DNA of 64,000 nt from positions 3,186,001 to 3,250,000 of the forward strand of contig NZ_AP024233.1 of NCBI RefSeq assembly GCF_025998535.1. The letters run 5' to 3'. The notes under the pieces are model-generated. The model was given only the letters and a program-made list of their open reading frames with translations, was not told the origin of the DNA and did not search any database. Below, piece by piece: positions 6,175 through 27,512 of the stretch. The stretch's first letter is position 1; each line of letters starts with the position of its first letter. Position numbers and translations under genes: made by a program. The stretch comes from Desulfolithobacter dissulfuricans. GTDB taxonomy: Bacteria; Desulfobacterota; Desulfobulbia; Desulfobulbales; Desulfobulbaceae.

Positions 6175-6472
<298 letters not shown>

Positions 6473-9687: not shown

Positions 9688-9689
9688 CA

Positions 9690-10670: not shown

Positions 10671-10743
10671 GCCGCTTTCCCCTCTGATCGCCTGAAGCCC
10701 CTTTATTTTCGTTACCCAAAAAGGTCAGGACGGAACACGCCAC

Positions 10744-11634: not shown

Positions 11635-11636
11635 GA

Positions 11637-12014: not shown

Positions 12015-13373
12015 CTTGCCAACCTCCTTTATTTTTGATTTTCGAATTCGAGCTTCCCGAACCAGAAAGGCCTTTATTAACGCCGCACGAACTCGATTTA
12101 CCTTTTGTTCCGCCTTACAACGGCGGATTGCGCCTGCAAGCAAGGTGCGGGGGTATACAGAGCCATTCAACACCGACCGGGCAACCTCGCCGCCGAGGTT
12201 GGGAGGAATGTTGTCAGCTTTTCCTTCCGCAGCCGTAGCAACAAGTAGCTGAAATAGAGAAAGAAACTCCCGGTCATGCGGAGCCCGGATAATATCCGTG
12301 TCCTCAAAATGTTGGGCGATCTTCTCTTTCAGGTCACGAACACTGCCCTCGTACCAGAAGCGGATGGCAATCCTGGAAGCGTTGGGAGCAAGGCCGAGTA
12401 CATAAAATGGCGTCGTGTCCTCTCCAGGAGGGATTCCGGTTCGTACCGCCGAGAGCAGGGAGCGCAATGGACCGTAATCCGGTTCCCGGCCCTTGTCGGG
12501 TTCTCCAAGAAACAGGGAAAAATCATCTTCAAATTCATGTTGCTCCCGGGCCCAAAAGACCGTACTGGCATCCCCCACCTGAATTCGCTGTCTGGATCCT
12601 TTTGCCAAAAGGGTGTTTAATGCGGTGGTGTAGGCAAAGGTGGTTTTCTGCCCAACCGGTGCATTCAATCCTTTTTTCTTGCCGAAGGATCGGAAAGCGT
12701 CCAGGTTGAACGAGACAATGTTAGCCCCGGACGATTGAGCTCCCCATACCCCTTTTATAGATGGGTGCAACTCTGCCGGGATGTCTGCCTTGCCGGTAAT
12801 AGAACACGGTTGTCCGGTTTCGCCCTTATCTTCAATTTCTCCAAGATGCTTCATAACCTGTGGCCGTTGTGGAACCAGACAGGTATCTCCCTCCAGCATG
12901 AAGGTGATATTGGCTTTTGTCTCCAGAATTTCTGGCCAGAGCTCATGGCCAAAAACCGGGGTGAAGTCTTTTGCCTGCAAAAATTTTCTTACCGCGCTGA
13001 TTCCTTCATCATCTATATCATTAGGGAAAGTATCCGCGATTCTCTTCAGGAATTGCTCCTGGGAGTCCGCCGCCCTCTTTCGGTCTTTCTCCTTATCGCT
13101 TTTGGGAATGCCAAAGACATATTGGGGGGTATCCCATAGAAGATTGGCCTTGACCCCGGATGTCTTTTTTTCTCCTTGCGGGACAATGAAATCACGAGCT
13201 GTTTTTTTCTTGCCTTCCCCGGTCCGGGTGTCACGAATGTTGATAAATCGGCCATCTTTATCAAGTACAATAAGATACGGTATGGGTTTTCTCTCAAAGC
13301 CGGGAGGGGCCACACCGCTATCTGGATCATTGAGCAGCCGTTCGTAATACTCCGCCAATGCCTTCAAAATCAT
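11637..13373 (-). CDS. cas8c: Type I-C Cascade large subunit Cas8c (Csd1)
   Basis: A 578-residue Csd1 family protein. It begins [14 protein letters not shown] with the usual N-terminal strand [11 protein letters not shown], and contains the family stretch [23 protein letters not shown] near residue 345. Cas8c recognises the PAM and positions target DNA for Cas3. The start overlaps the cas5c stop in an ATGA. The C-terminal 125 residues are also expected to be made separately as Cas11c (see the entry at 11637-12014), which type I-C systems need because they lack a separate small-subunit gene. Confidence 0.96.
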
Positions 13374-14038
13374 GACCGCACCTCCACATTTCGGAGATCC
13401 ACCCGCCCGTGTTGCATGACAGCATGGAAAAACCGGGGCATGGGCTCCTTGCCGGTGTAATCCATGTCATACAACATCCAGCCGAGATCGCGGCTGTCCG
13501 GGATAGGTGCGGGGGGCTCGGCATCCCTGGGCAGAAATGCAAAGTCCACCGGGAATTCACGGCAGCCAAAATAGGGGCGGTGAAAACATTGCCCCCTGGA
13601 GGCCCGGCGAATAAACATCTGCTCAAATTTCGTGACATTATCATCAGACCCGGCCTTGTCGGTCATCTCGAAATCAGCATGGATGACATAGGCCACATCC
13701 CGCAAAAACAATCCGGCCCGCTGCTGGCGTTCCTTTTCCACGTACAGTCCGAGATTGCCGTTGCCCCTGTTCATGGCTGTCTGCACATTGCGGGCAGAGA
13801 TCACCGCGCCCACCTCGTTACGGCGCACCGATTCCCAGCGGACAGGCTTCAACACATCAATCTGGAGGATCTTCCAGGCAATGGCCGGTTTCCATAAAAT
13901 GGCTTCCAGAATTCCACGGGCCGCCGATGGGGTCATTATATCGTAACTCACCCGTTCCACTTTCATTTCCGGCCGGGTAAAACAGGCATTAGCGCCGCTC
14001 ACCTTCAGCCGGAAAGGACTGCTTCTGCTCATAGACAC
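13370..14038 (-). CDS. cas5c: CRISPR-associated endoribonuclease Cas5c (Csd5d)
   Basis: A 222-residue Cas5d/Cas5c protein. In type I-C it replaces Cas6, cutting precursor crRNA within the repeat and staying bound to the 5-prime handle. The family pattern is ANACFTRPEMKVERVSYDIMTPSAARGILEAI near the N-terminus, RNVQTAMNRGNGNLGLYVEKERQQRAGLFLRDVAYVIHADF mid-protein, and a glycine-rich RRASRGQCFHRPYFGCREF. Length matches the 210-240 residue norm. It lies 10 bases after cas3 and overlaps cas8c by four bases. Confidence 0.95.
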   Translation of the reverse strand: MSMSRSSPFRLKVSGANACFTRPEMKVERVSYDIMTPSAARGILEAILWKPAIAWKILQIDVLKPVRWESVRRNEVGAVISARNVQTAMNRGNGNLGLYVEKERQQRAGLFLRDVAYVIHADFEMTDKAGSDDNVTKFEQMFIRRASRGQCFHRPYFGCREFPVDFAFLPRDAEPPAPIPDSRDLGWMLYDMDYTGKEPMPRFFHAVMQHGRVDLRNVEVRS

Positions 14039-14048
14039 CTCCTCTAAA

Positions 14049-16271
14049 TCATGAATTGTTCCGGATCGATCTCCGTGTCCTCATCCGGGGGACGAAGCCG
14101 TACCTCTTGTCATACAGGGTGTTGTCAAGCAGGTAGAGACCGGGATAACCGATCTCCCTCACATATTCCCTGGCCGCCAGCGGCGCTAATAATTTTTGGG
14201 GAATACCTACAGAGTATCGGCCAAGCCGACGCAGCAGCATTCTCTGGTTCCAGGGTTCAGAGGTTAACCGTCCCAAGAGTTCGACCGCCTCGTCCCAGGG
14301 GGCAAGCACACTCACCTGCCAATCATCATCAATCAACCGGAACCGCTCGGCCGCTGTCCGATAGTAATAGTTCATTCTTCCGGCAAAGAGCGGCATAATA
14401 CCCTTCCGGTCGAGGGCCTGTTCCCCCAGCAGCCAAAAACGCTGGCGGAAATAATTTTCGTAATTACCGGGAGAAAGCAAATTGTCAGGGCTATCCTTCA
14501 GGATTTCGGAAGCAATCCCGGCCGGCACTCGAACATAACCGGGCTGCTTTTCCGGCATAAAAACAACGGTCCGGCCAGAAGCGAGTTTCCCCTCCCGGTT
14601 GCAGCGGCCCGCCGCCTGGGCGATGGAATCCAGCCCGGACAGAGCCCGGTAAACCACTGGAAAATCGAGATCTACTCCCGCTTCCACCAGCGAGGTGCTG
14701 ATCACCTTTATCCCTTCGCCGTCATTCAATCTCGTTCGGATATCATCCATGACCCCGAGACGATGGGCGGCGCACATATTGGTGGAAAGGTGCAGGGTGA
14801 TGCCTTCCGGTAATAAACGGGCCAGATCGCGGGCGTCATCCCTGCGGTTGACGATACAGAGAAGCGCCTTTTTCTCGGCCTGTAGATCTTCTGCCAGTTC
14901 CGGAAGCGAAACCGGTGAAAACCCTTTCTCATGGATAACGACCTCTACCCGCTTCAGTCTGGCTGCCAGCTCATCCGGGTTGTCAACAATTTCCTGCGGC
15001 GGACTATCAAATCCCTCTCTGAACCTGAAATCGAAGGATTCTGTTTTGTTCAGCACCGGCTGGGTTGCGGTGCACAAGAGTGGCGTGACCCGGTAGTGCT
15101 TTTGCAGTTCACGGATAGCAAAGACCACCGGCCTCAGGTATTCAGGGGGCAGGCATTGGGCCTCGTCAAAAATAACTACCGAGTTTGCGATATTGTGCAG
15201 TTTCCGGCAACGGCTGGTGCGACAGGCATACAGAGACTCAAAAAACTGTACAGAGGTGGTGACAATGATGGGCGCATTCCAGTTTTCCGCAGACAGCCGG
15301 CTGCGGGCCGTCTCCCGGTCCTCGCCGGTTTCGGCAATATTGCAGTGATGTTCCACCACCGCCTTTTCAAAGCCGGGGATTTTGCCAAAAACTTTCGCGG
15401 TCTGTTCTATGATGCTGGTATAGGGGATCACATAGATGATTCTGCTTTTTTCATACTTGACTGCGTGACGTAGGGCAAAGGCCAATGACGCCAGGGTTTT
15501 GCCCCCGCCGGTGGGAACAGTCAAGGAAAATACAGACGGCTCTTGCTCGGCAACTTCACGGCACCGGGCCAGAATTTCCGCCCGAATGGTGTTGACCGGC
15601 GTCTGTCTGGCCTTTTTGCAAAGTAGATCCATATATGCGTCAAAATCTTCCAGTAAATCACCAGGCCCTGGATAGTCTTCTTTGCGTAACGCCGCCCTGG
15701 CCTGATCCATGAAGGCCTCGGTGTCAAGGAAATCAGCATCCACCAGGCAGGAGAAGAGCATCCGGATAAAGAAGGATGGGTCGGCGCCGTTTTGCAGTTT
15801 TTCAGGGGGAGGCGGTAAGGCCTGCGTCCTTATCCATTCCGGAATATTGGCCAATGTTTTTACCGAGCGGTCGGTGGCTGACATTTTGGGTGACAAGGCC
15901 TTGGCGCCAACGTATTCCGGTTCGTAATCGGTCAGCCCGGCGTGATGGCCCATAATGAGCCAGGAAAGCACCCGGTCAGCCCCCTTCCAGCCGTTAAGCG
16001 TAGCCAGATGACCACCCGCCTCAGAGTGAACAACCTTGCCCGGTTGGGTTTCGATATGACATTCAATGCCGTTGGCGTCATACAGCCTCTTCTGAAAACC
16101 ATCCGAATACTTGCCCAGGTCATGCCAGAGCCCGGCCAGATACGCCCAGTCCTCTCCTCCGAACGGGCGGGCGAAGTCTGCCGCCATCTCAGCGACATTT
16201 TTCAAATGTTTGGAAAGCTCCTGCCAATTTCCCGGAGATTTGCCTTCCAGACTGTGAGCATAATATTTCAT
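14049..16271 (-). CDS. cas3: CRISPR-associated helicase-nuclease Cas3
   Basis: A 740-residue fused Cas3 that degrades target DNA after Cascade binding. The N-terminal HD nuclease has His22, the His50-Asp51 pair in LWHDLGKYSDGF, and His109-His110. The SF2 helicase follows with Walker A PTGGGKT (253-259), the DExQ-type box DEAQ (369-372), the SAT-like TATQP and a C-terminal QAAGRCNRE motif VI. All catalytic motifs look intact. It is the first certain gene of the operon; a small open frame ends 3 bases upstream. Confidence 0.96.
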   Translation of the reverse strand: MKYYAHSLEGKSPGNWQELSKHLKNVAEMAADFARPFGGEDWAYLAGLWHDLGKYSDGFQKRLYDANGIECHIETQPGKVVHSEAGGHLATLNGWKGADRVLSWLIMGHHAGLTDYEPEYVGAKALSPKMSATDRSVKTLANIPEWIRTQALPPPPEKLQNGADPSFFIRMLFSCLVDADFLDTEAFMDQARAALRKEDYPGPGDLLEDFDAYMDLLCKKARQTPVNTIRAEILARCREVAEQEPSVFSLTVPTGGGKTLASLAFALRHAVKYEKSRIIYVIPYTSIIEQTAKVFGKIPGFEKAVVEHHCNIAETGEDRETARSRLSAENWNAPIIVTTSVQFFESLYACRTSRCRKLHNIANSVVIFDEAQCLPPEYLRPVVFAIRELQKHYRVTPLLCTATQPVLNKTESFDFRFREGFDSPPQEIVDNPDELAARLKRVEVVIHEKGFSPVSLPELAEDLQAEKKALLCIVNRRDDARDLARLLPEGITLHLSTNMCAAHRLGVMDDIRTRLNDGEGIKVISTSLVEAGVDLDFPVVYRALSGLDSIAQAAGRCNREGKLASGRTVVFMPEKQPGYVRVPAGIASEILKDSPDNLLSPGNYENYFRQRFWLLGEQALDRKGIMPLFAGRMNYYYRTAAERFRLIDDDWQVSVLAPWDEAVELLGRLTSEPWNQRMLLRRLGRYSVGIPQKLLAPLAAREYVREIGYPGLYLLDNTLYDKRYGFVPRMRTRRSIRNNS

Positions 16272-16274
16272 CTT

Positions 16275-16577
16275 TCAAATCCCCATACCGGCGAGCAGCG
16301 GTGAGGTGGCAACAGCCTTGCGGACCTCTCGCCGAAAAGCGGAATAGCGACTGAAGACCTGGTAATAGTATCCATGCAGCAGTTCCTTTGCCTCCTGCTT
16401 CGCTCCCTGCGCCACAAGCATCTCGGCCATGGCTTCCAGGGTGCAGGCAGCCCGGTTGTAGGCGTTGCGGTTTGTGCCAGCAGAATCTACACGTATTTCT
16501 TCTGTTTTCTTCCCTTGACACTCCCACCCTACCCCACCCACAGTCTCATATAGTGAGCACCCCCCTGATTTTTTCAT
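16275..16577 (-). CDS. Small hypothetical protein ahead of cas3
   Basis: A possible 100-residue protein ending 3 bases before the cas3 start. The last 60 residues (from AYNRAACTLEAMAEMLVAQ to the end) have the GC-rich third positions of the neighbouring genes and look like two amphipathic helices. The first 40 residues look less coding, so the true start may be an internal ATG (for example the M of EAMAEM). I do not recognise a family. It may be a genuine small operon gene or the surviving end of a longer gene cut when the island was rearranged. Confidence 0.45.
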   Translation of the reverse strand: MKKSGGCSLYETVGGVGWECQGKKTEEIRVDSAGTNRNAYNRAACTLEAMAEMLVAQGAKQEAKELLHGYYYQVFSRYSAFRREVRKAVATSPLLAGMGI

Positions 16578-16592
16578 TTTTTCTCAAATCGA

Positions 16593-16638
16593 ATTATACG
16601 CAGAGAGGATGGTCTTTTATATAGGTATATTTACCTAT
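16593..16638 (-). promoter_or_regulatory. Candidate cas operon promoter and operator
   Basis: On the minus strand a perfect TATAAT lies at 16593-16598, about 16 bases before the small frame preceding cas3. No good -35 is seen at the right distance. Instead a perfect 7-bp palindrome ATAGGTA-TATT-TACCTAT (16621-16638) abuts that position. The arrangement suggests control by a dimeric activator or repressor. Start point and regulator are unknown. Confidence 0.4.
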
Positions 16639-16728
16639 TTTGAGGCAAATAATGACGATTTTTCATTGGATTGGCCTAAACAGACGGTTTGCAAATCAGG
16701 AAACGGGGCTTATATTGAATGAAAAATG

Positions 16729-16754
16729 TTTTCTGATTACCACCGAACCTCAGC
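16729..16754 (+). repeat. Dispersed repeat end, left of IS110
   Basis: TTTTCTGATTACCACCGAAC plus CTCAGC. About 22 of 26 bases match the inverted copy at 18542-18567, and the first 20 resemble both ends of the palindromic element at 32181-32352. Between it and the cas promoter (16639-16728) I see nothing identifiable. Confidence 0.65.
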
Positions 16755-16775
16755 TTGAAGAAGAGACACCATCAC

Positions 16776-17098
16776 CTGCGTGCCACGGAGCCGGGCAGCT
16801 ATAAAAACCGCCCGGACTTCTCGTTCCTCCGCTCCCGCGGTACCCTGATGTATCTGGCAGGAATGGCCCATGGTTCGCAAGGCCCGCAGACAACCACTGC
16901 CAAAACCAGTTGCTCCGACACCTGTTAGGGCGTCACCCCGCAGAGCGGGGCATGGCCTGCCGGCCACTTCGTCGGCTACCCGGTCACCTGCGTGACACCG
17001 CGGAGGTAAAATGAGAAGGCTGATTCCCCGCGAGCTGTGTTATAAACACGCTCAAGAATAACCGCAGTCGAATGCTGCACAACCTGGGAGAACCAGCC
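16776..17098 (+). ncRNA. Candidate IS110 bridge RNA region
   Basis: The 320 bases before the transposase carry no gene but several hairpins: CCGGGC/GCCCGG (16791-16796 with 16810-16815), CCCCGC-AGA-GCGGGG (16936-16950) and others. IS110-group elements encode a structured bridge RNA in this position that pairs with target and donor DNA. I cannot assign the two guide loops by eye, so boundaries are nominal and the call rests on position plus structure. Confidence 0.3.
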
Positions 17099-18154
17099 AT
17101 GCACAATGTAACAATCGGAATGGACCTTGGCGATAAAAATCATGTTATCTGTATTGTTGATCATGCAGGCCGAATCGTGCGTCGAGATACGGTTACTAAT
17201 ACCAGAGAGGCGTTGAGTGAGTTTTTCTCACCCCATAAAGGGGCAACTGTTGCCCTTGAAGCCGGTACCCATTCGGCCTGGATCAGCAGGCTGTTATCCA
17301 GGCTGGGCTGCCATGTTTTGGTTGGCAACCCTCGTAAATTACGCGCCATCTGGGACAGCAACGATAAATCAGATACCAGAGACGCTGAAATGCTGGCCCG
17401 CATAGCCCGGATGGATCCTGATCTGCTCTATCCGGTCAACCACAGGGGCGAACAGGCCCAGATTGATCTGGAGATATTGCAGGCCAGGGATGTCCTGGTG
17501 AGGAACCGCTCCAGCCTGATCAACCATGTTCGTGGCAGTGTCAAGGCGCTGGGATATCGCCTGCCGGGATGCAGCGCAGACAGTTTTCACCGGCAGGCAG
17601 ATGAACATCTTCCTGAAGACTTACGTGGCGCTCTGGAGCCTGTATTGACAATTATCGGCCAGATTACGTCCCAGATCAAAGAATTTGACAGGGAAATAGA
17701 GCGTATCAGTGCGGAGCGATACCCGGAGACCGAATTATTGCGGGCCATAAAAGGAGTTGGTCCTCTGACGGCCCTGGCCTTTCTATTAATCGTGGAAGAC
17801 CCGGCACGATTTGGCAAAAGTAGACAGGTTGGATGTTTTCTTGGCCTGACTCCCCGCCGCGACCAGTCAGGAGAAACCGACAGGCAGCTTCGGATAACCA
17901 AAGCGGGCAACCCCTATCTGCGGAGGTTACTGGTCGGTTCGGCCCAGTACATCCTGGGACCTTTTGGAGAGGATTGCAATTTACGAAGATTTGGTCTTCG
18001 CCTGGCAGCCAGGGGAGGTAAAAACGCAAAGCGTCGTGCCGTGGTTGCCGTAGCCAGAAAACTGGCGGTACTCATGCATCGCCTCTGGCAGCACGGTGAG
18101 ATATATGACCCTTTTTACAAACCGCAATCTCGCCCCCTGGCAAAGGCTGCGTAG
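17099..18154 (+). CDS. IS110-family transposase
   Basis: A 351-residue DEDD recombinase. The RuvC-like N-terminal half starts MHNVTIGMDLGDKNH (Asp9 region), with ALEAGTHSAW and SDTRDAEMLARIARMD supplying further acidic residues. The C-terminal domain has the conserved IKGVGPLTALAF, then LGLTPRRDQSGETDRQLRITKAGNPYLRRLLV, where the serine of the RNA-guided recombinase is expected. The ATG at 17099 is chosen because GGGAG precedes it; the open frame reaches 9 codons further. The gene looks intact, so the element may still be active. Confidence 0.93.
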   Translation: MHNVTIGMDLGDKNHVICIVDHAGRIVRRDTVTNTREALSEFFSPHKGATVALEAGTHSAWISRLLSRLGCHVLVGNPRKLRAIWDSNDKSDTRDAEMLARIARMDPDLLYPVNHRGEQAQIDLEILQARDVLVRNRSSLINHVRGSVKALGYRLPGCSADSFHRQADEHLPEDLRGALEPVLTIIGQITSQIKEFDREIERISAERYPETELLRAIKGVGPLTALAFLLIVEDPARFGKSRQVGCFLGLTPRRDQSGETDRQLRITKAGNPYLRRLLVGSAQYILGPFGEDCNLRRFGLRLAARGGKNAKRRAVVAVARKLAVLMHRLWQHGEIYDPFYKPQSRPLAKAA

Positions 18155-18541
18155 AAAACCCGGTTGAACCAGAGAGTGAACAAAGGGAAAAAAGGATGTT
18201 TTTCCTTCTGTTTCCAAAGGCAGTTGAGAGTTTTTAATATCTCCCTCAAAAAAACGTCCCGTCCGGAAGACTGCGTGACACCGCTCGGTCCGTCATCAGC
18301 CAGTGACATATTCAAAGACCGCCGCGGAGGTTGCAGCTTCCACGACGGATTGTACGATGCATCGAGCTTATGGCTGAGCTCTTTATATGAATGCGAATGG
18401 AAGCCTGACGTTACAGGGATTTATAAAAAAAATGGTTCGCCACGTCGAACTTTTCTTGACAAGCCTTCTCATGGAAGCGGTGATCACGAGTTTTTCTCCA
18501 GGTAGAGAGAAAAAGCGATGTTATCCCTCGGATGGGTGAGA
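18155..18541. other. IS110 right flank, no gene
   Basis: This non-coding stretch holds the second CTGCGTGACACCGC copy (18271-18284), a further CCGCGGAGGT shared with the left flank, and the 18-mer TCGAACTTTTCTTGACAA (18445-18462), which recurs at 62213. No convincing open frame with a ribosome site was found. Confidence 0.5.
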
Positions 18542-18567
18542 GCTGAGCTTTGGTGATAATCAGAAAA
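18542..18567 (-). repeat. Dispersed repeat end, right of IS110 (inverted)
   Basis: The reverse complement reads TTTTCTGATTATCACCAAAG plus CTCAGC, an inverted imperfect copy of 16729-16754 and akin to the ends at 32181 and 32352. Confidence 0.65.
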
Positions 18568-18610
18568 TGTTTTGATAGCGCAATGCACATATAAGAGGGA
18601 GGAACAATAA

Positions 18611-18805
18611 ATGAAAAAGAAACTAAAGAACAAGAAGGTGACCGCCCGGGACTGGGGCGTGGTGGCCCTGATCAACCGGGCTGGCGGCAAGGGGCGTCAC
18701 CGGTCAAAGAAACACCGGCCCAGATGCACTGAAAAAGTGGCGCTTAAAAAAAGCCTCATGCGAAACGATTCGCATGGGGCTTTTTTCATGTTTTCTTCAA
18801 ATTAA
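18611..18805 (+). CDS. Small basic hypothetical protein
   Basis: A possible 64-residue protein with a good ribosome site (GAGGGAGG, 8 bases before the ATG). About a third of it is Lys or Arg (MKKKLKNKKVTARDWGVVAL...KKHRPRC). I do not recognise it. The last 15 codons run through the hairpin at 18750-18783, which is unusual and suggests either a read-through tail after loss of an original stop or that the frame is not a real gene. It converges on the large helicase gene. Confidence 0.35.
   Translation: MKKKLKNKKVTARDWGVVALINRAGGKGRHRSKKHRPRCTEKVALKKSLMRNDSHGAFFMFSSN
18750..18786. terminator. Hairpin terminator with ACGA loop (copy 1)
   Basis: A 15-bp stem (AAAGCCTCATGCGAA with TTCGCATGGGGCTTT, one G-T pair) closes an ACGA loop and is followed by a T-run on the plus strand. 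An A-run on the other side makes it usable for the helicase gene as well. It is nearly identical to the hairpin at 24286. Confidence 0.85.
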
Positions 18806-21800
18806 CGAATCAAACTCCTGCCGGATTGATACCTCACCTCGACAATGGGCAACTCCCAGCAGGTTCCGTAACATTTTTCCCTGAAGGCCGGGTCTGCAAC
18901 ATCGTCGAGATAGCGGCGGACCATTGCAACCACCTGCATGGAATGGATGGTGGCGAGCCTTGATTGCCAGCGGGCCTGACCCTTTTTTGACAGCCTGGCA
19001 ATCGGGACGTTCTGGTTGTTTTTCAGGACTATCAATCCGTTTTCCCTGCAACAACTGATCAGGTCACCGGTTTCCAGTCCACTGACGGCCATGCGTACAG
19101 GATGATTTTCCCTGCGAATACCGGCAAAATCGAGAAAGAGGTCCTTCATTCCCAGCAAATCCACCATGTCCCATGGGGGCGGGGTTCCTGTCTTGCTGCC
19201 TGACACCTCACGCTCAATAAAACAGTCGCCGTGCAATCCGTGCAGATGGGGATGTCGATGGCCCTGGACCTGAAAAAGGCTCAGGCTGACACGTGCTCTG
19301 GTCATCCCGACATAGAAGAGTCTTCGTTCCTCCTCCAGCGTTTCTGGCTTCCCTCCGGGCCAGTTTGTACCAAGCAGCAGAACATGCTCAAACTCCAGGC
19401 CCTTGACAGAGTGAACCGTGGAGAGAAAGACGCCCGAACCGAGACTTCTGCTCCGGGCCTGCTCCCCAAGCCCTTCATAAAGATACTCCTCAATCCTGGA
19501 AACAGCCAGATTCACATCGCCGGCCTCCTGCTTCAGGTCGTGCAGCAGTCGGCGCAGGTTGGCCTGCCAGAAGTTGTCTTCCGCTTCCCTGTCGGGCAGG
19601 AAAGAAAAAAGCTCCTGAACCCGCAGACTCCTGTTCCGGTTTTCCCGCAGGAACTCCAGCAGTTGTGCATTTTCCCTGATTCGGCTCAAACGTGGAAAGG
19701 AACTCCCGCCTCCCCAGTTGACATCAACAGGAATCCTGGCCGCCTCCAACGCGGCCCGGACCGGTGACAGACTGCGCCAGTCGCGTGCCAGCACAGCGCA
19801 CCCGGACCAGTCAAACCCATCACCAAGGGTTCTCAGCCGCTGCAGTTCCTCAACCACTGCGCTCCCCTGGATCTCTTCTCCCTTGACCTTGAGTATCTGC
19901 ACTCTGCCACGGGCAAGGGGATCACGATCTGCCAACTGCCCGCCCGGAGGCAGCATGGCACGGGCTTCGTTTACCCGGATCGGGTGGTCGCTCTTCATTC
20001 TGTCGCGATTCTTCTCTATAAGCAGGTTTGCAGCATTGATGATATGACCGGTGGAACGAAAGTTTTCAGTGAGATGATAGACCGTTGCCTGATAGTCCTC
20101 CCTGAACCTGCGGATAAACTCAATATTGGCCCCGCGAAACCGGTAGATGTTCTGGTCATCGTCGCCCACTGCCAGAATCGACATCTTCTGATCCTGCTCA
20201 TCCAGACTCTTGCCGACAAGCAGGGAAATCAGTTCGTATTGATCCGCGTCAATATCCTGGTACTCGTCAACCAGCAGATGGCTGAATCGTCCTACCAGAA
20301 CATCCCGCTCCATCCCTTCCTGAAAGCCAAGCGACACCTTATCTCCCCTGAGCAGACGATTGGCATCCCGGATCAGTTCCGCAAAATCAATATCCTCCCC
20401 TCTCTCCTTTTCCGCAACCGCAAGAGAGCGGCCGGTCAGCCTCAGAGCCAGCCCGTGGAAGGTCAACGTCGTCACCCGTGACATCTCATCCCCCACAAGG
20501 TCACGCAGCCTGCTGCGCAGATCAACCACAGCCGCCCGGTTAAAGCAGAGTACGAGTATCGATGTCGGTCGAACCCGCTCAACCCGCAGAAGCCAGGCTA
20601 CCCTGTGGATGACCACCCTGGTCTTGCCGGCTCCCGGTCCGGCCAGAACCAGCATGTTCTGCCCTGCCGGCGCAGAAACAATTTTCTGCTGATGCCTGTT
20701 ACGCAGGGAAACCACCAGTTTTTCCCATGACTGCTCACTTGTGGCCCGTAAAATGGACTGCTTTCTACCAGGGAAAAACCGTTGGAGAAAGCTCTCCCTG
20801 TCGTCATTGAAATATGAGGCCACCAGCCGCATGGCAGAACTGATTTTCAGCAGTGCCTGGCGGGCATACTCGTTCATCACATGGATCTGGAAATTCTGCT
20901 CTTTGTAATGCGTCTCAAGCGGTTCAAAATCCTTTTTGAGATAGCGCCGTGACCTTGCCTCCGGGTGAAGGTGGATGGTCATGGCCTGGCGAAAAACAGC
21001 CAACCCCTGCTGCAGATCAATAACCCGATGCTCATGCATGAAGGTCAGAGCCCGTTCCGCGGCGGCCAGAGGATTTTTCAGCAGCGGCAGCAGGGTCAGA
21101 TCCGCCTTCAACCCCTCGATAACCCGCTCCAGGGTAAAGGTGACCATGAGGGTGGCACTGGGCTTCTGATCTTTTCCAACAGCCTGCAATATGACCTCCA
21201 GCGCCACCCGGGCAGACTGCTGACGGATATGCATGGTTGTTTTGATATCCTCCCAGGTTCGAAGCAGGGAAACCGCATAGCAGTTCCCCTGGATTTTTTT
21301 AACTTTCAGCGAGCCCTTCTGCCCCGCAAGCCCTCGTCCATCCCTGCTCAGACCGTAGAGCAAATGTTGCAGTACCTCGGGATTGGAAGCCGTACTTCCC
21401 CGATCGATCAACTTCTGATTCACCTGACGAAGATCAAGCTCCAGATGCTGTTCAACTTCCGCATCCCAGGCCTCTTTGCTGAGAAGATCGACAAAGTCCC
21501 GCTCCAGTGCGCAGAGGGTCTCCAACTGCTTTTCCGCGCTGTTTTTCACCTTGTAACGCAGCCAGGCCGAAAGCGTGGTTTCCTTGGTGAGCAGTCCCTG
21601 TTCAGCCATGTCGTGCAGGGTTTTCAACACCCTCTGGCTTTCGGTTTCATCCCCTGGTTCATCCTTGTCCCTTGCAAACGCAGAATAACCAGCCAGCTCA
21701 TCGGCGCTGAAACTTTCATCCTGCCTGTCTTGCTGCATCAGCTCCCTGAGGATGACAAGCCACCGCTCCTGCTGCCGTCTGGAAAGCCCCAGGTCCGCAA

Positions 21801-24075
21801 TCTTTTTTTGAGCCTCTGCAAGATCTTTCACCAGGGGCCTGCCCTGGAAGACCCTGGTGTAGTTCTCGTTGCGCTCAAGAAAACCCGCACGTTCAAGCCA
21901 GGCCAGCGCTGTCCGTACCCGGGTTTCGGGATCTGTTTTTTCCATCTCATCAAGTTCAACCACCTGCTGGCGAATGATGTCTCCAGCGGTCATCACCACC
22001 TCACTGGTGCCTCTTGCGGCATAGCGAATCCCACGCAGGATCTGGCTGATATCCTTTCGGGCGAGGCGGGAAAAACAGGAGAGCTGAAACTGTTTTTCAA
22101 TATCCTGCTCGTCAAAGACCAGCACACATTCCGCCTGCTGCAGGTCCCGTCCTGCACGGCCCGCCTCCTGGAGATAGTTTTCAAGCGATCCCGGGATATC
22201 GGCGTGGATCACCAGCCGCACATCCTCCTTGTCGATTCCCATGCCAAAGGCATTGGTGGCACAGATGATCGGTAATTCCCCGCTGATAAAAGCCTCCTGC
22301 AGACGCTTTTTTACCGGGACCTCGAGTCCGGCATGAAAGGGTTCCACCGTATAGCCCTGGTCTGCCAGAAACTCAGCCATGAGTTCGGTGTTTTTCCTGG
22401 TGGCACAGTAGATGACAACGCTGCCCCTGCCCTCTTCATATCGCTCCTGCAGCAGACTGAGAATGGTACGGTTTTTTTCACTGGTCTCCGCGCTTATCAC
22501 CTGGTAGCTGAGATTGGTCCGTTCATGGCCGCCTTCAAAAAGCTTTACCTTTTTTCCAAGCTCTGACTGGATAAGGTCAACGATTTCCCGGCGGACATCC
22601 TTCTTGGCCGTGGCTGTGAAACACTGTACCGGAGGAATTGCCGCCTGCGCCTCCTCTGCCCGTTCCCGAATAAACCGGATGGCGTAGAGATAATCCGGCC
22701 GGAAATCGTGGCCCCATTTGGAAAGGCAATGCGCCTCGTCAAATACCCAGGCGCCGATCTCGCGCTGGCGGACCGTGGAAAGAAAGGAAGGGTTGCGCAA
22801 CTGTTCCGGCGAGACGTAGAGGATACCGATATCACCAAGCCGCACCGCCTCGATGACTTCCGCCCGCTCCACCGGGGTCAACATGCCGTAAAGCGCGGCA
22901 GCCAGCCTGGTTCCTGTCTGCCGGCAGAAGTTATCGACCTGATCCTTCATCAGGGCCTGCAGGGGCGAGATGACAATGGTCAGTTGATTACACCGCCTGT
23001 AGCGCATTATTGCCGGCAGCAGGTAACAAAGCGACTTGCCGCCACCGGTCGGCAGGACGGCAAACATGGTCCTGTTGCCGGCCGCAGCCCGGACAATTTC
23101 CCCCTGCAGGCTTTCCCCGGTCTCTGTTGCCGGATGTGGACGAAAGGACGGAAAACCATAGTATCGTTCCAGGGCGGCCTGCGGATCGAAATGCCCGCTG
23201 CAGTAAGAACAGGCCGGATCCCTGCAGTCCACATCCCGCAATCTGCGTAGCACTGTCGTAATCTGCGGAAAACGGCGTCTCACCCAGGGCGGCAGGATGG
23301 AGTTGCCGTCCGCAACCGACAACCAGGCACTGACATAGGCATAGAGAACAGGCTCCCCAACCCCGTCGTGAAGTTCATCCACCAGTTGCTGCGCGGCTGT
23401 CCTGCAGCCATGCTTGCCGGCAAACCAGCCAAAGGCCTCAAAAAGATCTGCACCGGTCAGGAGAGGAATCCCCATGGCCGCAAGCGATTCACCAGTACCT
23501 CGAAACTGCCTGCTCTGCTCCAGAAAGCCGCGAGAGTGAACAACCGATTCATCACCGGCTGCAAACCGCTCCACCAGCGCCTGCCACTGCTCACAGAAGA
23601 TGCGTCCGGCAAGACGGGCGTCATGTTCAGGATTACTCATGCTGTCCCGGACAATTTGATAATCCTTCACCAGTCGATGGTAGGGGTTTGCCGGATAGGC
23701 AAGGGGGGAGAGAACAAGGGTATCGATGGCCGGTTTTTTCAGTAGCAGAAGATCGGGGGCAATTGCCTTGAGGCGGGGGATATCATGGTCGATGATATTG
23801 TGACCGAGCAGAAACCTGGCATCCGAAGCAAACCCGGAGAGTTCTTCAAGCGTTTCAGGGGTGATCCTCTTGCCTGGTCTGCAGAGGAAAACCTCATCTC
23901 CCAATATGCCGGCCAAAGCATAGATCACCCCATGCTCGTTGACTTCAATATCAAGGAGCAGGCAGCTCTTGAGAAAATCCTGACAGGGATTGTTCACCAT
24001 CTCAAACCGGTACGGCTGTTCAGATACACATAACTCTCTTGCCATATACCACAACAATCCGGAAATTTGAGGCAT
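18802..24075 (-). CDS. Exonuclease-RecQ-UvrD fusion helicase
   Basis: A 1757-residue protein. Residues 36-165 resemble a DEDDh 3-to-5-prime exonuclease: Asp42 and Glu44 in LLLDIEV, Asp96/Asp98 in GHNIIDHD, His151-Asp152. Residues 300-720 form a RecQ helicase: Walker A LPTGGGKS (341-348), DEAH (446-449), QEAGRAGRD (637). Three cysteines (284, 289, 292) precede it. Residues 1125-1660 form a UvrD/PcrA-type SF1 helicase: GPGAGKT (1146-1152), DEYQD (1270-1274), VHSVKGLEFEHV and a GMTRARVSLSLF motif VI. The middle 400 residues and C-terminal 100 are unassigned. Such an architecture implies unwinding plus degradation of DNA, in repair or phage defence. It stands alone between two hairpins. The start is uncertain; Met26 is an alternative. 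Confidence 0.88.
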   Translation of the reverse strand: MPQISGLLWYMARELCVSEQPYRFEMVNNPCQDFLKSCLLLDIEVNEHGVIYALAGILGDEVFLCRPGKRITPETLEELSGFASDARFLLGHNIIDHDIPRLKAIAPDLLLLKKPAIDTLVLSPLAYPANPYHRLVKDYQIVRDSMSNPEHDARLAGRIFCEQWQALVERFAAGDESVVHSRGFLEQSRQFRGTGESLAAMGIPLLTGADLFEAFGWFAGKHGCRTAAQQLVDELHDGVGEPVLYAYVSAWLSVADGNSILPPWVRRRFPQITTVLRRLRDVDCRDPACSYCSGHFDPQAALERYYGFPSFRPHPATETGESLQGEIVRAAAGNRTMFAVLPTGGGKSLCYLLPAIMRYRRCNQLTIVISPLQALMKDQVDNFCRQTGTRLAAALYGMLTPVERAEVIEAVRLGDIGILYVSPEQLRNPSFLSTVRQREIGAWVFDEAHCLSKWGHDFRPDYLYAIRFIRERAEEAQAAIPPVQCFTATAKKDVRREIVDLIQSELGKKVKLFEGGHERTNLSYQVISAETSEKNRTILSLLQERYEEGRGSVVIYCATRKNTELMAEFLADQGYTVEPFHAGLEVPVKKRLQEAFISGELPIICATNAFGMGIDKEDVRLVIHADIPGSLENYLQEAGRAGRDLQQAECVLVFDEQDIEKQFQLSCFSRLARKDISQILRGIRYAARGTSEVVMTAGDIIRQQVVELDEMEKTDPETRVRTALAWLERAGFLERNENYTRVFQGRPLVKDLAEAQKKIADLGLSRRQQERWLVILRELMQQDRQDESFSADELAGYSAFARDKDEPGDETESQRVLKTLHDMAEQGLLTKETTLSAWLRYKVKNSAEKQLETLCALERDFVDLLSKEAWDAEVEQHLELDLRQVNQKLIDRGSTASNPEVLQHLLYGLSRDGRGLAGQKGSLKVKKIQGNCYAVSLLRTWEDIKTTMHIRQQSARVALEVILQAVGKDQKPSATLMVTFTLERVIEGLKADLTLLPLLKNPLAAAERALTFMHEHRVIDLQQGLAVFRQAMTIHLHPEARSRRYLKKDFEPLETHYKEQNFQIHVMNEYARQALLKISSAMRLVASYFNDDRESFLQRFFPGRKQSILRATSEQSWEKLVVSLRNRHQQKIVSAPAGQNMLVLAGPGAGKTRVVIHRVAWLLRVERVRPTSILVLCFNRAAVVDLRSRLRDLVGDEMSRVTTLTFHGLALRLTGRSLAVAEKERGEDIDFAELIRDANRLLRGDKVSLGFQEGMERDVLVGRFSHLLVDEYQDIDADQYELISLLVGKSLDEQDQKMSILAVGDDDQNIYRFRGANIEFIRRFREDYQATVYHLTENFRSTGHIINAANLLIEKNRDRMKSDHPIRVNEARAMLPPGGQLADRDPLARGRVQILKVKGEEIQGSAVVEELQRLRTLGDGFDWSGCAVLARDWRSLSPVRAALEAARIPVDVNWGGGSSFPRLSRIRENAQLLEFLRENRNRSLRVQELFSFLPDREAEDNFWQANLRRLLHDLKQEAGDVNLAVSRIEEYLYEGLGEQARSRSLGSGVFLSTVHSVKGLEFEHVLLLGTNWPGGKPETLEEERRLFYVGMTRARVSLSLFQVQGHRHPHLHGLHGDCFIEREVSGSKTGTPPPWDMVDLLGMKDLFLDFAGIRRENHPVRMAVSGLETGDLISCCRENGLIVLKNNQNVPIARLSKKGQARWQSRLATIHSMQVVAMVRRYLDDVADPAFREKCYGTCWELPIVEVRYQSGRSLIR

Positions 24076-24089
24076 TTTTCATGCAATCT

Positions 24090-24257
24090 GCCCGGAACTC
24101 CCGGCCAATACCGCGCTGATGCTGCTGGCTGTGGCCTGTTCACTCCTTGACCGGCAGGCAGGTTGCACGACTGGCGAAGGATTTCGAAAACCAGAGCGGA
24201 TTTACCGAACAGCTCTACCGGGTGCACACCACCGCCAAACGAAGGAAGATTACCTGA
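24090..24257 (+). pseudogene. C-terminal remnant of a four-helix-bundle suffix-type protein
   Basis: A coding-like stretch reads CPELPANTALMLLAVACSLLDRQ and, after a frameshift, VARLAKDFENQSGFTEQLYRVHTT, ending at TGA 24255-24257. A tandem CAGGCAGG explains the shift as a 4-base insertion. The pattern (ANxx...LLDRQ...GGFTExLYRVR) is what I recall for proteins with a four-helix-bundle suffix domain. The N-terminal part is missing where the helicase gene begins, so the island seems to have cut this gene. Confidence 0.4.
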
Positions 24258-24285
24258 GCCTTCACAGATTTTGTCAGTGGTGAGC

Positions 24286-24321
24286 AATCGCCCCATGCGA
24301 AACGATTCGCATGGGGCGATT
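24286..24321. terminator. Hairpin terminator with ACGA loop (copy 2)
   Basis: A perfect 16-bp stem, AATCGCCCCATGCGAA with TTCGCATGGGGCGATT, closes an ACGA loop. It lies 1 base from the LysE-family stop and serves as its transcript end. The central 20-base palindrome CATGCGAAACGATTCGCATG is identical to that at 18750. Confidence 0.8.
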
Positions 24322-24322
24322 T

Positions 24323-24946
24323 TCATGTCTCCTGGACCAGGGCCAGCAGGCAGGCGCCTATGGTGAGCAGCAGGGCGGTTACCCGGCCCTGGATCAGGCG
24401 GAACCTGGTGTCCTGCAGGAGATCGGCCAGCCACTCGCCCAGGCATGCGTAGAGGAACAGGGCCGTCCCGTTGAGAACCATGAATGTCGTGCCAAGGAGC
24501 AGGCACTGGGCGGTGGTGTTGTGGTGATCATCCAGAAAGATGGGAAAGAGCACCGAGAAAAAGATGATCGCCTTGGGGTTGGTGAACGAGGTGAGAAAGC
24601 CCTGGCGGTACCGGGCCAGGGCAGTGTCGTGGCGGTCTTCCTGCCGCAGCTTGAGCGGTGTATCCTGTTTCCAGAGCCGGATGGCCAGGAGGAGGATATA
24701 ACCGACCCCTACCCACTTGACCGCGTGAAACAGCAAAGGCGCGTTTTTCAGCAGCAGGCCCAGGCCCAGCGAGGCCAGCAGGATCTGGATGCTGTTGGCG
24801 CTGACATTGCCGGCAATGGTCTGGAGCGCCTTCAGGCGTCCATAGCGGATGCCGTGCGACAGGGCCAGCAGCACCGACGGTCCCGGAGTCAGCACCAGGA
24901 GCGTGACCGTGGCAACGAAGATGGGCCAGTTTTCCATATCTTCCAC
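24323..24946 (-). CDS. LysE/RhtB-family exporter
   Basis: A 207-residue inner-membrane protein with about six hydrophobic segments and the LysE signature LLVLTPGPSVLLALSHGIRYG at residues 15-37. The second conserved stretch is GFLTSFTNPKAIIFFSVLFPIF near 115. Members export amino acids (lysine, threonine, homoserine, leucine) or related metabolites; the substrate is not predictable here. It is the last gene of a probable ilvD-rhomboid-lysE unit, 11 bases after the rhomboid stop, so export of branched-chain amino acids is a reasonable guess. Confidence 0.9.
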   Translation of the reverse strand: MEDMENWPIFVATVTLLVLTPGPSVLLALSHGIRYGRLKALQTIAGNVSANSIQILLASLGLGLLLKNAPLLFHAVKWVGVGYILLLAIRLWKQDTPLKLRQEDRHDTALARYRQGFLTSFTNPKAIIFFSVLFPIFLDDHHNTTAQCLLLGTTFMVLNGTALFLYACLGEWLADLLQDTRFRLIQGRVTALLLTIGACLLALVQET

Positions 24947-24957
24947 CCGGCCGGTGG

Positions 24958-25679
24958 TCAGGCCCGCTGCCGGTAATACTGCGGGTTGACAAAGGAACCG
25001 ACCAGGAACAGCCCGGCCAGAAATCCGCCGATATGGGCCCAGAAGGCCACCCCGCCGCCGGCGGCGGCCAGGGCCGGCAACCCGCCGAGCAACTGGATCA
25101 GAAACCAGTAACCAAGCATGGCAATAGCCGGCACCTCGAAGGTGGTGATAAAAAAGCCCAGGAAAACAAGGGTGTGTACCCGGGCGTGAGGGTAGAGCCT
25201 GGCATACCCGCCCATTACCCCGCCGATGGCCCCGGAGGCCCCACCATGGGCAGAATCGACGAGGGCTGGGTCATGGTCTGGGCGGCCGCAGCGGCAAGGC
25301 CGCAGACGAGATAGAAGGCGAGGAAACGGACCGGGCCCATGGCGTCTTCCACATTATCGCCAAAGACCCAGAGAAACCACATGTTGCCGATCAGGTGGAA
25401 CCAGCCGCCGTGCATGAACATGTGGGTGAGGATGGTATAGAAGCCTCCCTGGCCCTGGATCACGCAGTACAGGTCCCGACCGACCTGAACATGGGTTCCC
25501 GGCGGCACAAGCCCCAGAACCTTACCGGGGATCAGGCCGAAATAGCACAGCGAGCGGGCCAGAGCCTGGTGCGCGCCAAAGCCCTGGAGAAACATCCACG
25601 AGGCCACGCAGGCGACGATGATGCTGATGGTCGCCACCGGCGTTCGGACCGTCGGGTTGACGTCATGGAGAGGAAACAT
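24958..25679 (-). pseudogene. Rhomboid-family intramembrane serine protease, frameshifted
   Basis: The first 148 residues (MFPLHDVNPTVRTPVATISI... HMFMHGGWFHLIGNMWFLWVFGDNVED) and a second frame (MGGYARLYPHARVHT... FWAHIGGFLAG) together make one rhomboid of about 240 residues. The break falls at the catalytic GASGAIGG motif near 25240: the sequence has GTGGGGCC where GTGGGGGCC would restore the serine motif. The catalytic His lies in WAHIGGF. The missing base is in a G-run, so this may be a sequencing error rather than true loss. It lies between ilvD (3 bases apart) and lysE. Confidence 0.8.
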
Positions 25680-25682
25680 GGC

Positions 25683-27512
25683 CTACGGCACCAGCCGCAC
25701 CGCGCCCTTGTCGGCCGAGGCGGCAAAATGGGCATAGGCGCGCAGGGCCGGAGACACGGTCCGCTCACGGTCCGGAGTAAAGGCTGCCTCGCCTTTGGCC
25801 TCCTCTTCGGCCCGCCGGCGGGCCAGTTCGTCCTCGGAGATCATCAGGTTGATGGTCCGCTCCGGGATGTTTATATCCACGGGATCACCGTTGCGAACCA
25901 GGCCGATGGCCCCTCCCCCGGCCGCCTCGGGCGAGACATGGCCGATGGACAGGCCCGAGGTGCCGCCGGAGAACCGGCCGTCGGTGACCAGGGCGCATTC
26001 GGCGCCCAGGTGCATGGATTTCAGGTAGGAGGTGGGGTAGAGCATCTCCTGCATGCCTGGTCCGCCCCGGGGCCCTTCATAGAGAATGAACACCACGTCC
26101 CCGGCCTTGATCTCGCCGCCGAGGATGCCCTCGCAGGCGTCCTCCTGGGAATGATAGACCCGGGCCGTACCCTTGAAGTGAAGAATGGAGGGATCAACGC
26201 CGGCGGTCTTGACGATACAGCCGTCAACGGCGATGTTGCCGTAGAGCACGGCCAGCCCGCCATCCCTTGAATAGCTGTGCTCCAGATCCCGGATACAGCC
26301 AGCGACCCGGTCCCGGTCCAGTTCGTCGTACATGGTGTCCTGCGAACCCATGACCAGGTTGCGGCCCTTGCCTGCCGGGGCCGAGCGGTACAGTTCAATG
26401 GCCTCGTCGGTCACGGTGTCGCGCATGATATCAAACCTGTCCAGGGCCTCGGCCAGGGAGAGCCCGTCGGCCCGGGAGACCGAGGTGTCCACCAGCCCGG
26501 CCCGGTCCAGCTCGCCGAGGATGCCCAGGATGCCACCGGCCCGGTTGACGTCTTCCACGTGGTAATGGGAGCTGGGCGCCACCTTGCACAGGTTGGGCAC
26601 CTTGCGGGAAAGGGCGTCGATATCCGCCATGGTGAAATCCACCCCGGCCTCGTTGGCAATGGCCAGGATATGCAGCACCGTGTTGGTGGACCCGCCCATG
26701 GCGATGTCGAGCGCCATGGCGTTCATGAACGAGGCCCGGGTGGCGATGGAGCGCGGCAGAACCGAGGCGTCCTCGTTATCGTACCAGGCCTCGCACATGG
26801 CCACGATCCTGCGGGCCGCCTTTTCAAACAGACCAAGCCGGTTGCGATGGGTGGCCACCACAGTGCCGTTGCCTGGCAGGGCCAGGCCCAGGGCCTCGTT
26901 GAGGCAGTTCATGGAGTTGGCCGTGAACATGCCCGAGCACGAACCGCAAGTGGGGCAGGCCGAGCGCTCGATGACCGCGATCTCCTCATCGGATACCGAG
27001 GCATCTCCGGCCATGACCATGGCATCCACCAGGTCCAGGGCCCTGTCGCCGGCATGACCGGCCTCCATGGGCCCGCCCGAGACGAAGATAGCCGGAATAT
27101 TGAGCCGCATGGCTGCCATGAGCATACCCGGGGTGATCTTGTCGCAGTTGGAGATGCAGACCATACCATCCACCTTGTGGGCGTTGCACATGTACTCCAC
27201 ACTGTCGGCGATCAGCTCCCGCGACGGCAGGGAATAGAGCATGCCGTCGTGGCCCATGGCGATGCCGTCGTCAATGGCGATGGTGTTGAACTCGGCCGCG
27301 AAGCAGCCCTGCTCCTCGATATATTTCTTGACCTGCTGGCCGATCTCGTGCAGGTGCACGTGGCCGGGCACCATCTGGGTAAACGAGTTGACCACCGCGA
27401 TGACCGGCCGGCCGATCTGTTCTTCTGTCATGCCGTTTGCCCGCCACAGTGCCCGGGCACCGGCCATGCGCCGGCCCTGGGTGGTTACGGCGCTGCGAAG
27501 TGGAATAGCCAT
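25683..27512 (-). CDS. ilvD: Dihydroxy-acid dehydratase IlvD
   Basis: A 609-residue Fe-S dehydratase that converts 2,3-dihydroxy-isovalerate and its homologue to the 2-oxo acids in valine and isoleucine synthesis. Cluster ligands are expected at Cys123 (SNCDKITPG) and Cys192 ([16 protein letters not shown]), with a further conserved Cys in [12 protein letters not shown]. The C-terminal [20 protein letters not shown] is complete. AAGGAGAAG lies 7 bases before the ATG, and a strong promoter is at 27582-27609. The closest alternatives, Edd and sugar-acid dehydratases, are longer or lack this start. Confidence 0.97.

Follow-up and report, generated by a model that had tools for sequence, protein, structure and literature searches.

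A conserved exonuclease-RecQ-UvrD fusion protein beside a type I-C CRISPR-Cas locus of Desulfolithobacter dissulfuricans and its candidate role in defence against mobile elements

What does a bacterium do with a single protein that joins an exonuclease to two helicase motors, and does it matter that the gene lies beside a CRISPR-Cas locus? The question is raised by a 64,000-nucleotide stretch of the Desulfolithobacter dissulfuricans genome (assembly GCF_025998535.1, contig NZ_AP024233.1, positions 3,186,001 to 3,250,000), here called the window, in which an initial annotation made from the letters alone described an exonuclease-RecQ-UvrD fusion and suspected a defence protein. The fusion is a real, conserved and widely spread helicase-nuclease that is apparently unnamed, encoded by an accessory gene with a patchy distribution across several phyla. 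It is best read as a self-contained helicase-nuclease that acts on foreign or damaged DNA, and protection of the cell from mobile elements is the leading but unproven account of its purpose, with a likelihood that we put a little short of even.

The gene is one open frame of 1757 codons on the minus strand (Table 1), in agreement with its first description, and its product carries in order a DnaQ-fold exonuclease, a cysteine cluster, a RecQ motor, a winged-helix-like middle region, a UvrD motor, and a C-terminal domain. This layout is shared by relatives: 82 other open reading frames (ORFs) align with 1500 or more query residues at 28-61% identity. With the query, these ORFs, all scoring above 500, make up the 83-row alignment behind the residue counts given below; copies that are split or cut at contig edges, such as those at eleven of the loci, are excluded from the counts, and one near-copy (95%) is among the rows. 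Both motors keep their Walker A and B residues in all 83 rows, and because the exonuclease carboxylates are also near-invariant across six named phyla, all three enzyme sites seem to be under selection in one chain.

The fusion could in principle be illusory, through the joint reading of two or three adjacent genes or an error of assembly, or the copy could be dead, and the loci of six relatives are indeed split. Yet the domain order is the same and the spacing nearly constant in all 83 rows (RecQ motif VI and the UvrD Walker A motif lie 479-521 residues apart), single open frames of 1719-1756 codons are found in six genomes assembled into one or two contigs, and the window's own ORF has no visible stop or frame break. 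Conserved order and spacing, together with open frames in well-assembled genomes, rule out a chance or artefactual fusion for the family, which leaves this explanation scarcely credible.

Both motors are recognized by family models. Pfam assigns residues 323-643 to a DEAD-type superfamily 2 (SF2) motor; TIGR00614, the RecQ subfamily model, covers residues 322-662 with 283.1 bits against a cut-off of 219.8, whereas the RecQ equivalog TIGR01389 matches residues 300-662 with 337 bits, far under its cut-off of 640. RecQ structures, including BLM, RecQ5, and WRN, align to residues 300-782 in a phmmer comparison with PDB sequences. K347, the DEAH box at 446-449 (with D446 and E447), the TAT at 487-489, R640, and R643 are present in 83/83 rows, and the Walker A neighbours G344, S348, and G345 in 82, 81, and 74 of them, respectively. 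The RecQ motor that had been claimed is confirmed by the TIGR00614 score and by these key residues. No RQC or HRDC match follows the motor in Pfam at E up to 0.001, and the middle region that does follow it has winged-helix-like parts.

The second motor matches the Pfam models for the N- and C-terminal parts of UvrD at residues 1126-1600 (PF00580, E 2.3e-41; PF13361, E 5.6e-23), scores 113-198 bits with the NCBIfam equivalogs for UvrD, PcrA, and Rep, whose cut-offs are 911-1168, and aligns by phmmer with PDB sequences of UvrD, PcrA, and Rep and, more weakly, of GajB. The SF1A motor motifs, reported as a full UvrD/PcrA set, are there: beyond the Pfam matches, K1151, D1270, E1271, Q1308, R1340, and H1555 occur in every one of the 83 rows. 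The motor is compact, with two stretches that are 68 and 61 residues shorter than in Escherichia coli UvrD and that we take to be subdomains 1B and 2B.

Between the motors, where about 400 residues had been left unassigned, a joining region is present but measures about 460 residues and is winged-helix-like. An AlphaFold model of residues 690-1125 has a mean predicted local distance difference test (pLDDT) score of 85.6 and a predicted template modelling (pTM) score of 0.67, winged-helix Pfam models match the middle regions of the family weakly (HTH_Crp_2 in 10 of 65 members, lowest E 7e-5), and structure comparison ranks a winged-helix part of CodY first. As that match has a Z score of 8.4 over 79 residues, the region is called only winged-helix-like; the model suggests winged-helix modules, probably DNA-binding, with linker helices. 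A HIRAN-like identity for the last 156 residues found no support in Pfam or the PDB.

An exonuclease fold, the absence of which would have removed the defence idea, is predicted at the N-terminus. An AlphaFold model of residues 1-298, built with 69 relatives, has a mean pLDDT of 89.5 and shows residues 30-203 or so in an RNase H-like/DnaQ exonuclease fold. The closest solved fold to residues 28-298 is Staphylococcus aureus DinG (Z 13.1 and 12.4, the best alignment covering 235 residues with a root-mean-square deviation of 4.5), followed by the DnaQ domain 8h18 (Z 10.8), Pol II, and oligoribonucleases. Foldseek alone gave no match to the N-terminal model at E of 0.001 or less, and Pfam returned nothing for the window's exonuclease domain at E up to 1; among the same domains of 70 family members, RNase_T matches 5, DNA_pol_B_exo1 6, and RNase_H_2 4. 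A profile search with the domain returned TREX-like and DinG chains (E 0.002-0.004). By hhalign the domain reached 97.8% probability over 119 columns with 20 DnaQ-type sequences from related genomes and 88.6% over 76 columns with an RNase_H_2/YprB-type set of 10 sequences, an uneven comparison because the sets hold 20 and 10 sequences.

The DEDDh-like site that had been reported as intact stands in its carboxylates and fails in its histidine. D42 (80/80), E44 (79/80), D98 (81/81), and D152 (82/82) are conserved among the rows with a residue there. His151, taken for the catalytic histidine, occurs in the window protein alone (1/82). The position that corresponds to the DEDDh histidine is 147, five before D152, where hhalign sets the catalytic His of DnaQ opposite S147; it is Asn in 73 of 82 rows, Ser in 8 (the window protein included), and Ala in 1. 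An intact DEDDh site using His151 is thereby excluded, as is a WRN-type DEDDy exonuclease, since no row of 82 has Tyr four before the last Asp (position 148 is D in 44 rows, N in 31, S in 3, H in 2, and K and R in 1 each). H133 and K137 are invariant (82/82) in the same loop as the missing-His position and may substitute for it; the loop is predicted with lower confidence (pLDDT 58 for residues 131-140 and 72 for residues 141-150). The cysteine cluster that follows the exonuclease region, C284-x4-C289-x2-C292, probably binds metal.

How such a protein might work depends first on polarity. RecQ and UvrD family enzymes move 3'-to-5' on single-stranded DNA, and the title of a cited paper on RqlH gives the 3'-5' direction for a RecQ-like helicase. 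If both motors keep the direction of their families, the fusion protein would most likely load where DNA is branched or ends in a single-stranded 3' tail, as in incoming, replicating, or broken foreign DNA, strip proteins off it, and unwind it with both motors, which might work one behind the other on the same strand or start from the two arms of a branch. The exonuclease, of predicted 3'-to-5' direction and next to the RecQ motor, would sense or trim the 3' strand along which the motors travel, and in this way the protein could protect the cell from mobile elements.

The occurrence of the gene is consistent with an accessory function. A scan of the genome collection gave 580 relatives, and among the best 80 of these, 74 loci span at least residues 119-1595; further members were added from searches of related genomes. 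Named carriers belong to the Thermodesulfobacteriota (Desulfobacterota), Pseudomonadota, Verrucomicrobiota, Planctomycetota, Bacteroidota, and Bacillota, to which plasmid matches add cyanobacteria (one at 86% coverage, others partial). Within the window's order, at least part of the family's middle region, fragments included, was found in 67 of 257 genomes and 27 of 69 genera; in the window's phylum a one-sequence query matched 9 of 395 genomes, two of them weakly. Seven members lie on contigs of 3.6-6.8 Mb. Plasmids are carriers as well, with 27 records matching at E up to 1e-60, in 17 of which a single stretch matches 80% or more of the protein; the annotated records mostly name the product 'RecQ family ATP-dependent DNA helicase'. 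A plasmid of Allochromatium vinosum carries an intact member (WP_223295316). Of six copies on Rhizobium plasmids, two, in Rhizobium ruizarguesonis TP15 and TP23, are intact by annotation. The three checked are broken: a frame break interrupts two of them and the third is replaced after about residue 1124, although sequencing errors may have a part in this; the sixth (NZ_CP088107) aligns in two pieces only. No clean empty site was found in Rhizobium: the stretch absent from a sister plasmid measures about 12 kb and takes in HipA along with the gene.

Some copies also bear signs of movement. Direct repeats of at least 45 bits lie within 1 kb of the gene at 5 of 77 loci, the window included, versus 0 of 570 control placements (p 2e-5), a result to be read with the knowledge that the window, one of the five positives, prompted the test and that the threshold was chosen after first results had been seen. 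Without the window p is 2e-4, and without both the window and locus L112, whose 41-nucleotide repeat is T-rich, 3 of 75 loci remain (p 0.0015); the 77 are those with full 1-kb flanks among 85 examined. Inverted repeats flank the gene at 1 of 77 loci and 1 of 570 controls. Locus L024 (genome G010) has inverted repeats of 185 nucleotides and 93% identity (7425-7608 and 12836-13020) that flank the gene like the ends of a small transposable unit. On a Sulfitobacter plasmid (L117), direct repeats of 495 nucleotides and 93% identity (10980-11474 and 17335-17829) flank the family gene; the repeated piece is the 3' part of a gene together with its hairpin, and the second copy lacks that gene's 5' end. 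By eye, the hairpins that end both copies resemble those of the window.

In the window itself, the near-identical hairpins that had been reported to box the gene form a 44-nucleotide direct repeat of 89% identity that brackets it. Their 20-nucleotide core occurs in these two places only in the 3.6-Mb genome, with up to 2 mismatches allowed, and in none of the order's 248 other genomes when 1 mismatch is allowed. A terminator repeat spread through the genome is excluded by the two genomic places and by its presence in the window's genome alone among 249 of the order. The hairpin was not found in viral contigs, plasmids gave only four weak partial matches, and Rfam returned nothing at gathering scores within 16200-26000. 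The small basic ORF of 64 residues whose 3' end holds hairpin 1 has no Pfam or NCBIfam match; among 26 other genomes it has one strong relative (68%) and two weak ones (29-31%). A similar hairpin closes the strong relative, so hairpin 1 is probably the original end of a gene and hairpin 2, on the other side of the cassette, a copy of it. Hairpin 2 adjoins the remnant of a gene for a four-helix-bundle suffix domain, of which only the end is encoded, so that the suspicion that another gene had been cut was justified, by a TIGR04258 fragment that scores under the model cut-off.

These observations could also describe a gene that serves mobile elements, namely a plasmid- or element-borne helicase-nuclease that aids its carrier's establishment, replication, or integration, or suppresses rivals, with the repeats marking a small mobile cassette. 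The 27 plasmid records, the repeats at 5 of 77 loci, the Sulfitobacter piece, and a hairpin core confined to the cassette in its own genome are what such a gene would lead one to expect, but 72 of the 77 loci have no direct flanking repeats of at least 45 bits, the seven members on megabase contigs are at odds with it, and no recombinase lies inside the window's hairpin-to-hairpin unit. Two IMG/VR contigs match over at least 80% of the protein, and in one of them (L210, 5600-13489) the gene lies beside apparent Mu-type repressor, transposase, and transposition-protein genes, with a DNA match of the flank to Mu-like Pseudomonas phages (72% over 5% of the flank); this case, the one that places the gene beside Mu-like early genes, is possibly host DNA next to a prophage end. 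In the other (L211) the gene lies beside a type III-like Mod methyltransferase, and the flank has no DNA match to phages. Taken together, we consider a gene that serves the elements themselves improbable.

The same accessory pattern, patchy, plasmid-borne, decaying, and in a minority of loci repeat-flanked, fits a gene that defends the cell, but the arguments that speak specifically for defence are weak. The best partial matches in PADLOC are the motors of the defence systems DpdF, PsyrT, and GajB. The CRISPR-Cas locus and the IS110 element said to lie beside the gene are both there, as type I-C cas genes (cas3, cas5, cas8c, cas7, cas4, and cas1, 8027-16271) and an IS110 transposase (17072-18154), both below the fusion gene. 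Other examples of nearby defence genes are CRISPR I-D in Thiothrix, type I restriction in Allochromatium, and the type III-like Mod of L211; toxin-antitoxin genes also lie near some copies, and other annotated neighbourhoods name no defence genes. Homologues confined to housekeeping contexts, which would have removed the defence idea, were not seen. PADLOC models matched by proteins near the gene number 85 (102 proteins), against 76 for far (120) and 24 for random ones (95), which hints at richer surroundings. The near and far sets comprise 102 of 198 and 120 of 253 eligible genes from a codon-usage gene finder and include 13 and 15 plasmid-locus genes, respectively.

Several results weigh against the defence role. 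The PADLOC figures are counts of models, which are redundant, and not of genes; the near and far sets hardly differ, and the random set is small, drawn from seven genomes only. The enrichment beside defence genes that had been proposed as a check was not significant: within 20 kb, Cas1 occurs in 1 of 57 genomes, the window's own, versus 0.73 expected (p 0.52), and N6_Mtase in 3 of 57 versus 1.44 expected (p 0.18; one strong match and two weak), the expected counts being upper bounds because contig breaks were ignored. This test covered 55 of the 67 order genomes, 12 having been excluded by hand, mostly for partial or fragmentary matches, together with genomes G378 and G234. The CRISPR neighbour does not recur in the genomes examined. 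In 93 loci there is no constant neighbour (the commonest cluster is found in 24, at scattered distances and orientations, and the next in 9), and no Pfam family is found in more than 3 of 102 nearest-gene proteins; a constant operon partner is rejected on these grounds, and the description of the gene as stand-alone is supported. None of 50,697 phage records matches over 80% of the protein. Because the catalytic His of DEDDh enzymes is missing, exonuclease activity is uncertain. Carriage by about a quarter of the genomes of the order would suit an optional repair gene as well. Phylum labels are strongly clustered on a FastTree tree of six phyla (12 label changes, versus 32 shuffled and a minimum of 5), so that the gene does not often pass from one phylum to another; relationships largely follow the phyla, with some breaks. 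Mis-binned contigs inflate these tree breaks; the 'Puia' row, which falls within the sulfate reducers, is a probable case. In G378 a fourth N6_Mtase, about 24 kb from the gene, narrowly misses the 20-kb limit.

An optional genome-maintenance enzyme with the layout of WRN or Gram-positive DinG, which clears 3' flaps, stalled forks, and protein blocks on host DNA and has no immune role, is a substantial possibility, though we hold it doubtful. The N-terminal 300 residues or so resemble S. aureus DinG most closely (Z 13.1), PMC12525004 describes Bacillus subtilis DinG as a 3'-to-5' exonuclease on linear single-stranded DNA linked to replication stress, the RecQ matches include BLM, RecQ5, and WRN, and the neighbourhoods are not significantly enriched in Cas1 or N6_Mtase. 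Such an enzyme sits poorly with a gene that is patchy, plasmid-borne, frame-broken in Rhizobium copies, and variable in its neighbours, and the window genome already has a separate RecQ-motor match in a 727-residue frame (G000:C1:1951764) and a separate UvrD-type match in a 748-residue frame (G000:C1:860196).

The preferred reading, that of a self-contained accessory helicase-nuclease directed at mobile elements, can be given a more specific form. The fusion would be a widespread, unnamed single-gene immune machine in which two same-polarity motors feed an atypical DEDD exonuclease, its His replaced by Asn or Ser, for the sensing or trimming of foreign 3' ends. It would pass between genomes as a small cassette, depositing on either side a copy of a gene's 3' end with a terminator hairpin. 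This form is unlikely as a whole.

Table 1. Positions in the window of the fusion gene, its protein regions, and the adjoining features
Feature	Position	Strand	Basis
Whole ORF, 1757 residues, exonuclease-RecQ-middle-UvrD fusion	18802..24075	-	ORF reading; 82 further ORFs aligned over 1500 residues or more
DnaQ-like exonuclease domain (residues 36-172)	23560..23970	-	D42, E44, D98, D152 conserved; S147 at His position
All-helical region (residues 173-282), exonuclease to Cys cluster	23230..23559	-	AlphaFold secondary structure; DinG alignment covers region
C284-x4-C289-x2-C292 cluster	23188..23226	-	All three Cys in 83/83 rows
RecQ-type SF2 motor (residues 300-662); Walker A K347, DEAH 446-449	22090..23178	-	Pfam, NCBIfam, and PDB-sequence matches
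Middle region (residues 663-1125), winged-helix-like pieces and long helices	20701..22089	-	AlphaFold, Pfam, structure comparison
Compact UvrD/PcrA-type superfamily 1 (SF1) motor (residues 1126-1601); K1151, D1270-E1271	19273..20700	-	Pfam, NCBIfam, UvrD alignment
C-terminal domain (residues 1602-1757), unassigned, weakly conserved	18805..19272	-	
Small basic ORF, 64 residues, 3' end holds hairpin 1	18611..18805	+	
Hairpin 1, terminator-like, inside 3' end of small basic ORF	18747..18786	+	
Remnant of 'four helix bundle suffix' domain protein, cut gene	24120..24254	+	TIGR04258 E 1.2e-6, 28 bits vs cut-off 40
Hairpin 2, sole other copy in genome	24286..24321	+	

Above the fusion gene lie genes for a LysE-type exporter and a rhomboid protease, and ilvD. 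The rhomboid gene (24958-25679, minus strand) is spread over two frames (25215-25679 and 24958-25215) and, being read in two frames, is either broken or carries a sequencing error. The ilvD-side stretches of 10 relatives (3-10 kb, mostly downstream) hold no rhomboid, exporter, IS110, cas3, or family gene, and since these regions lack the exporter and rhomboid genes as well as the family gene, no empty site was found for the window copy; one of the 10 has a 13-residue pilT start beside ilvD. On the other side, a 33-nucleotide inverted repeat of 85% identity (16723-16755 and 18541-18573) flanks the IS110 region; inverted repeats of this sort are usually absent from IS110 elements. Farther below, a RhuM-Fic/Doc-type gene (9690-10670, minus strand) between cas7 and cas4 looks like an insertion in the cas operon, and CRISPR array-like tandem repeats with a period of about 66 (5154-7380, unit start GTTTCAATCCACGCCC) lie beside the type I-C cas genes.

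If these readings are true, the fusion is a helicase-nuclease machine of several bacterial phyla that annotated plasmid records mostly list as a RecQ helicase. It would offer a one-chain system in which to study the cooperation of two like-polarity motors, and a DnaQ-type active site without its usual base. Should the protein be immune in function, it would add to the defence proteins encoded by one gene; with no constant neighbours, it is of a kind that searches guided by partner genes would tend to overlook.

The belief that no named defence system has this architecture holds for the sources covered. No named family or system for the fusion was found in PADLOC-DB 2.0.0, NCBIfam 20.0, or Pfam, and the exonuclease-RecQ-UvrD architecture was not found described in the open-licence literature, as judged by titles and the starts of abstracts, nor in passages of PMC12458937, PMC9122126, PMC5512222, and PMC12525004. 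Among helicase families, the RecQ group (bacterial RecQ, BLM, RecQ5, and WRN) is alike in that the fusion passes TIGR00614 and aligns over the whole motor, and unlike in that the fusion has no Pfam RQC or HRDC match at E up to 0.001, falls under the equivalog cut-off, and carries a second motor. WRN likewise joins an N-terminal DEDD-superfamily exonuclease to a RecQ motor in one chain; its exonuclease is of the DEDDy type, whereas the fusion has neither Tyr nor His at the expected exonuclease places, and WRN is not known to have a UvrD motor. The WRN exonuclease chain is not among the 50 structure-comparison matches listed, of which DinG and DnaQ are the best. Gram-positive DinG, the closest solved fold, also has an exonuclease followed by a helicase, but its motor is XPD-like and not RecQ, according to PMC12525004, and it has no UvrD motor. 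UvrD, PcrA, and Rep share the SF1A motor motifs with the fusion, which in two stretches is 61 and 68 residues shorter than E. coli UvrD.

Defence systems and recombination machines offer further partial likenesses. In Gabija, GajB models match residues 1228-1604 of the fusion, but no GajA-like constant neighbour was found at the fusion loci; two GajA models matched one member each, both among the far genes (within the 25 matches listed of 76 PADLOC matches). The RecQ-like motors of Dpd (DpdF) and PsyrTA (PsyrT) give the best PADLOC scores, the best DpdF matches covering residues 298-666 and PsyrT residues 324-705, each only part of the profile; here the motor alone matches, and none of the 25 PADLOC matches listed, of 71, runs across the chain. 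RecBCD and AddAB also combine two motors and a nuclease in one machine, and the initial annotation had been reminded of RecBCD-like machines with opposite-polarity or tandem motors. RecB and RecD have opposite polarities and travel the same way on opposite strands. The comparison fails on polarity, since the fusion's motors are assigned to the RecQ and UvrD families, both 3'-to-5', so that a RecBCD-style arrangement is unlikely and a RecBCD-like machine with opposite-polarity motors is rejected; the fusion moreover has a DnaQ-type and not a RecB-type nuclease, in one chain with motors from same-polarity families. Hna is reportedly a single-gene helicase-nuclease defence protein that combines a single SF2 motor with a nuclease motif at the opposite end; like it the fusion is a large stand-alone protein with helicase and nuclease parts, and unlike it the fusion has two motors and an N-terminal nuclease.

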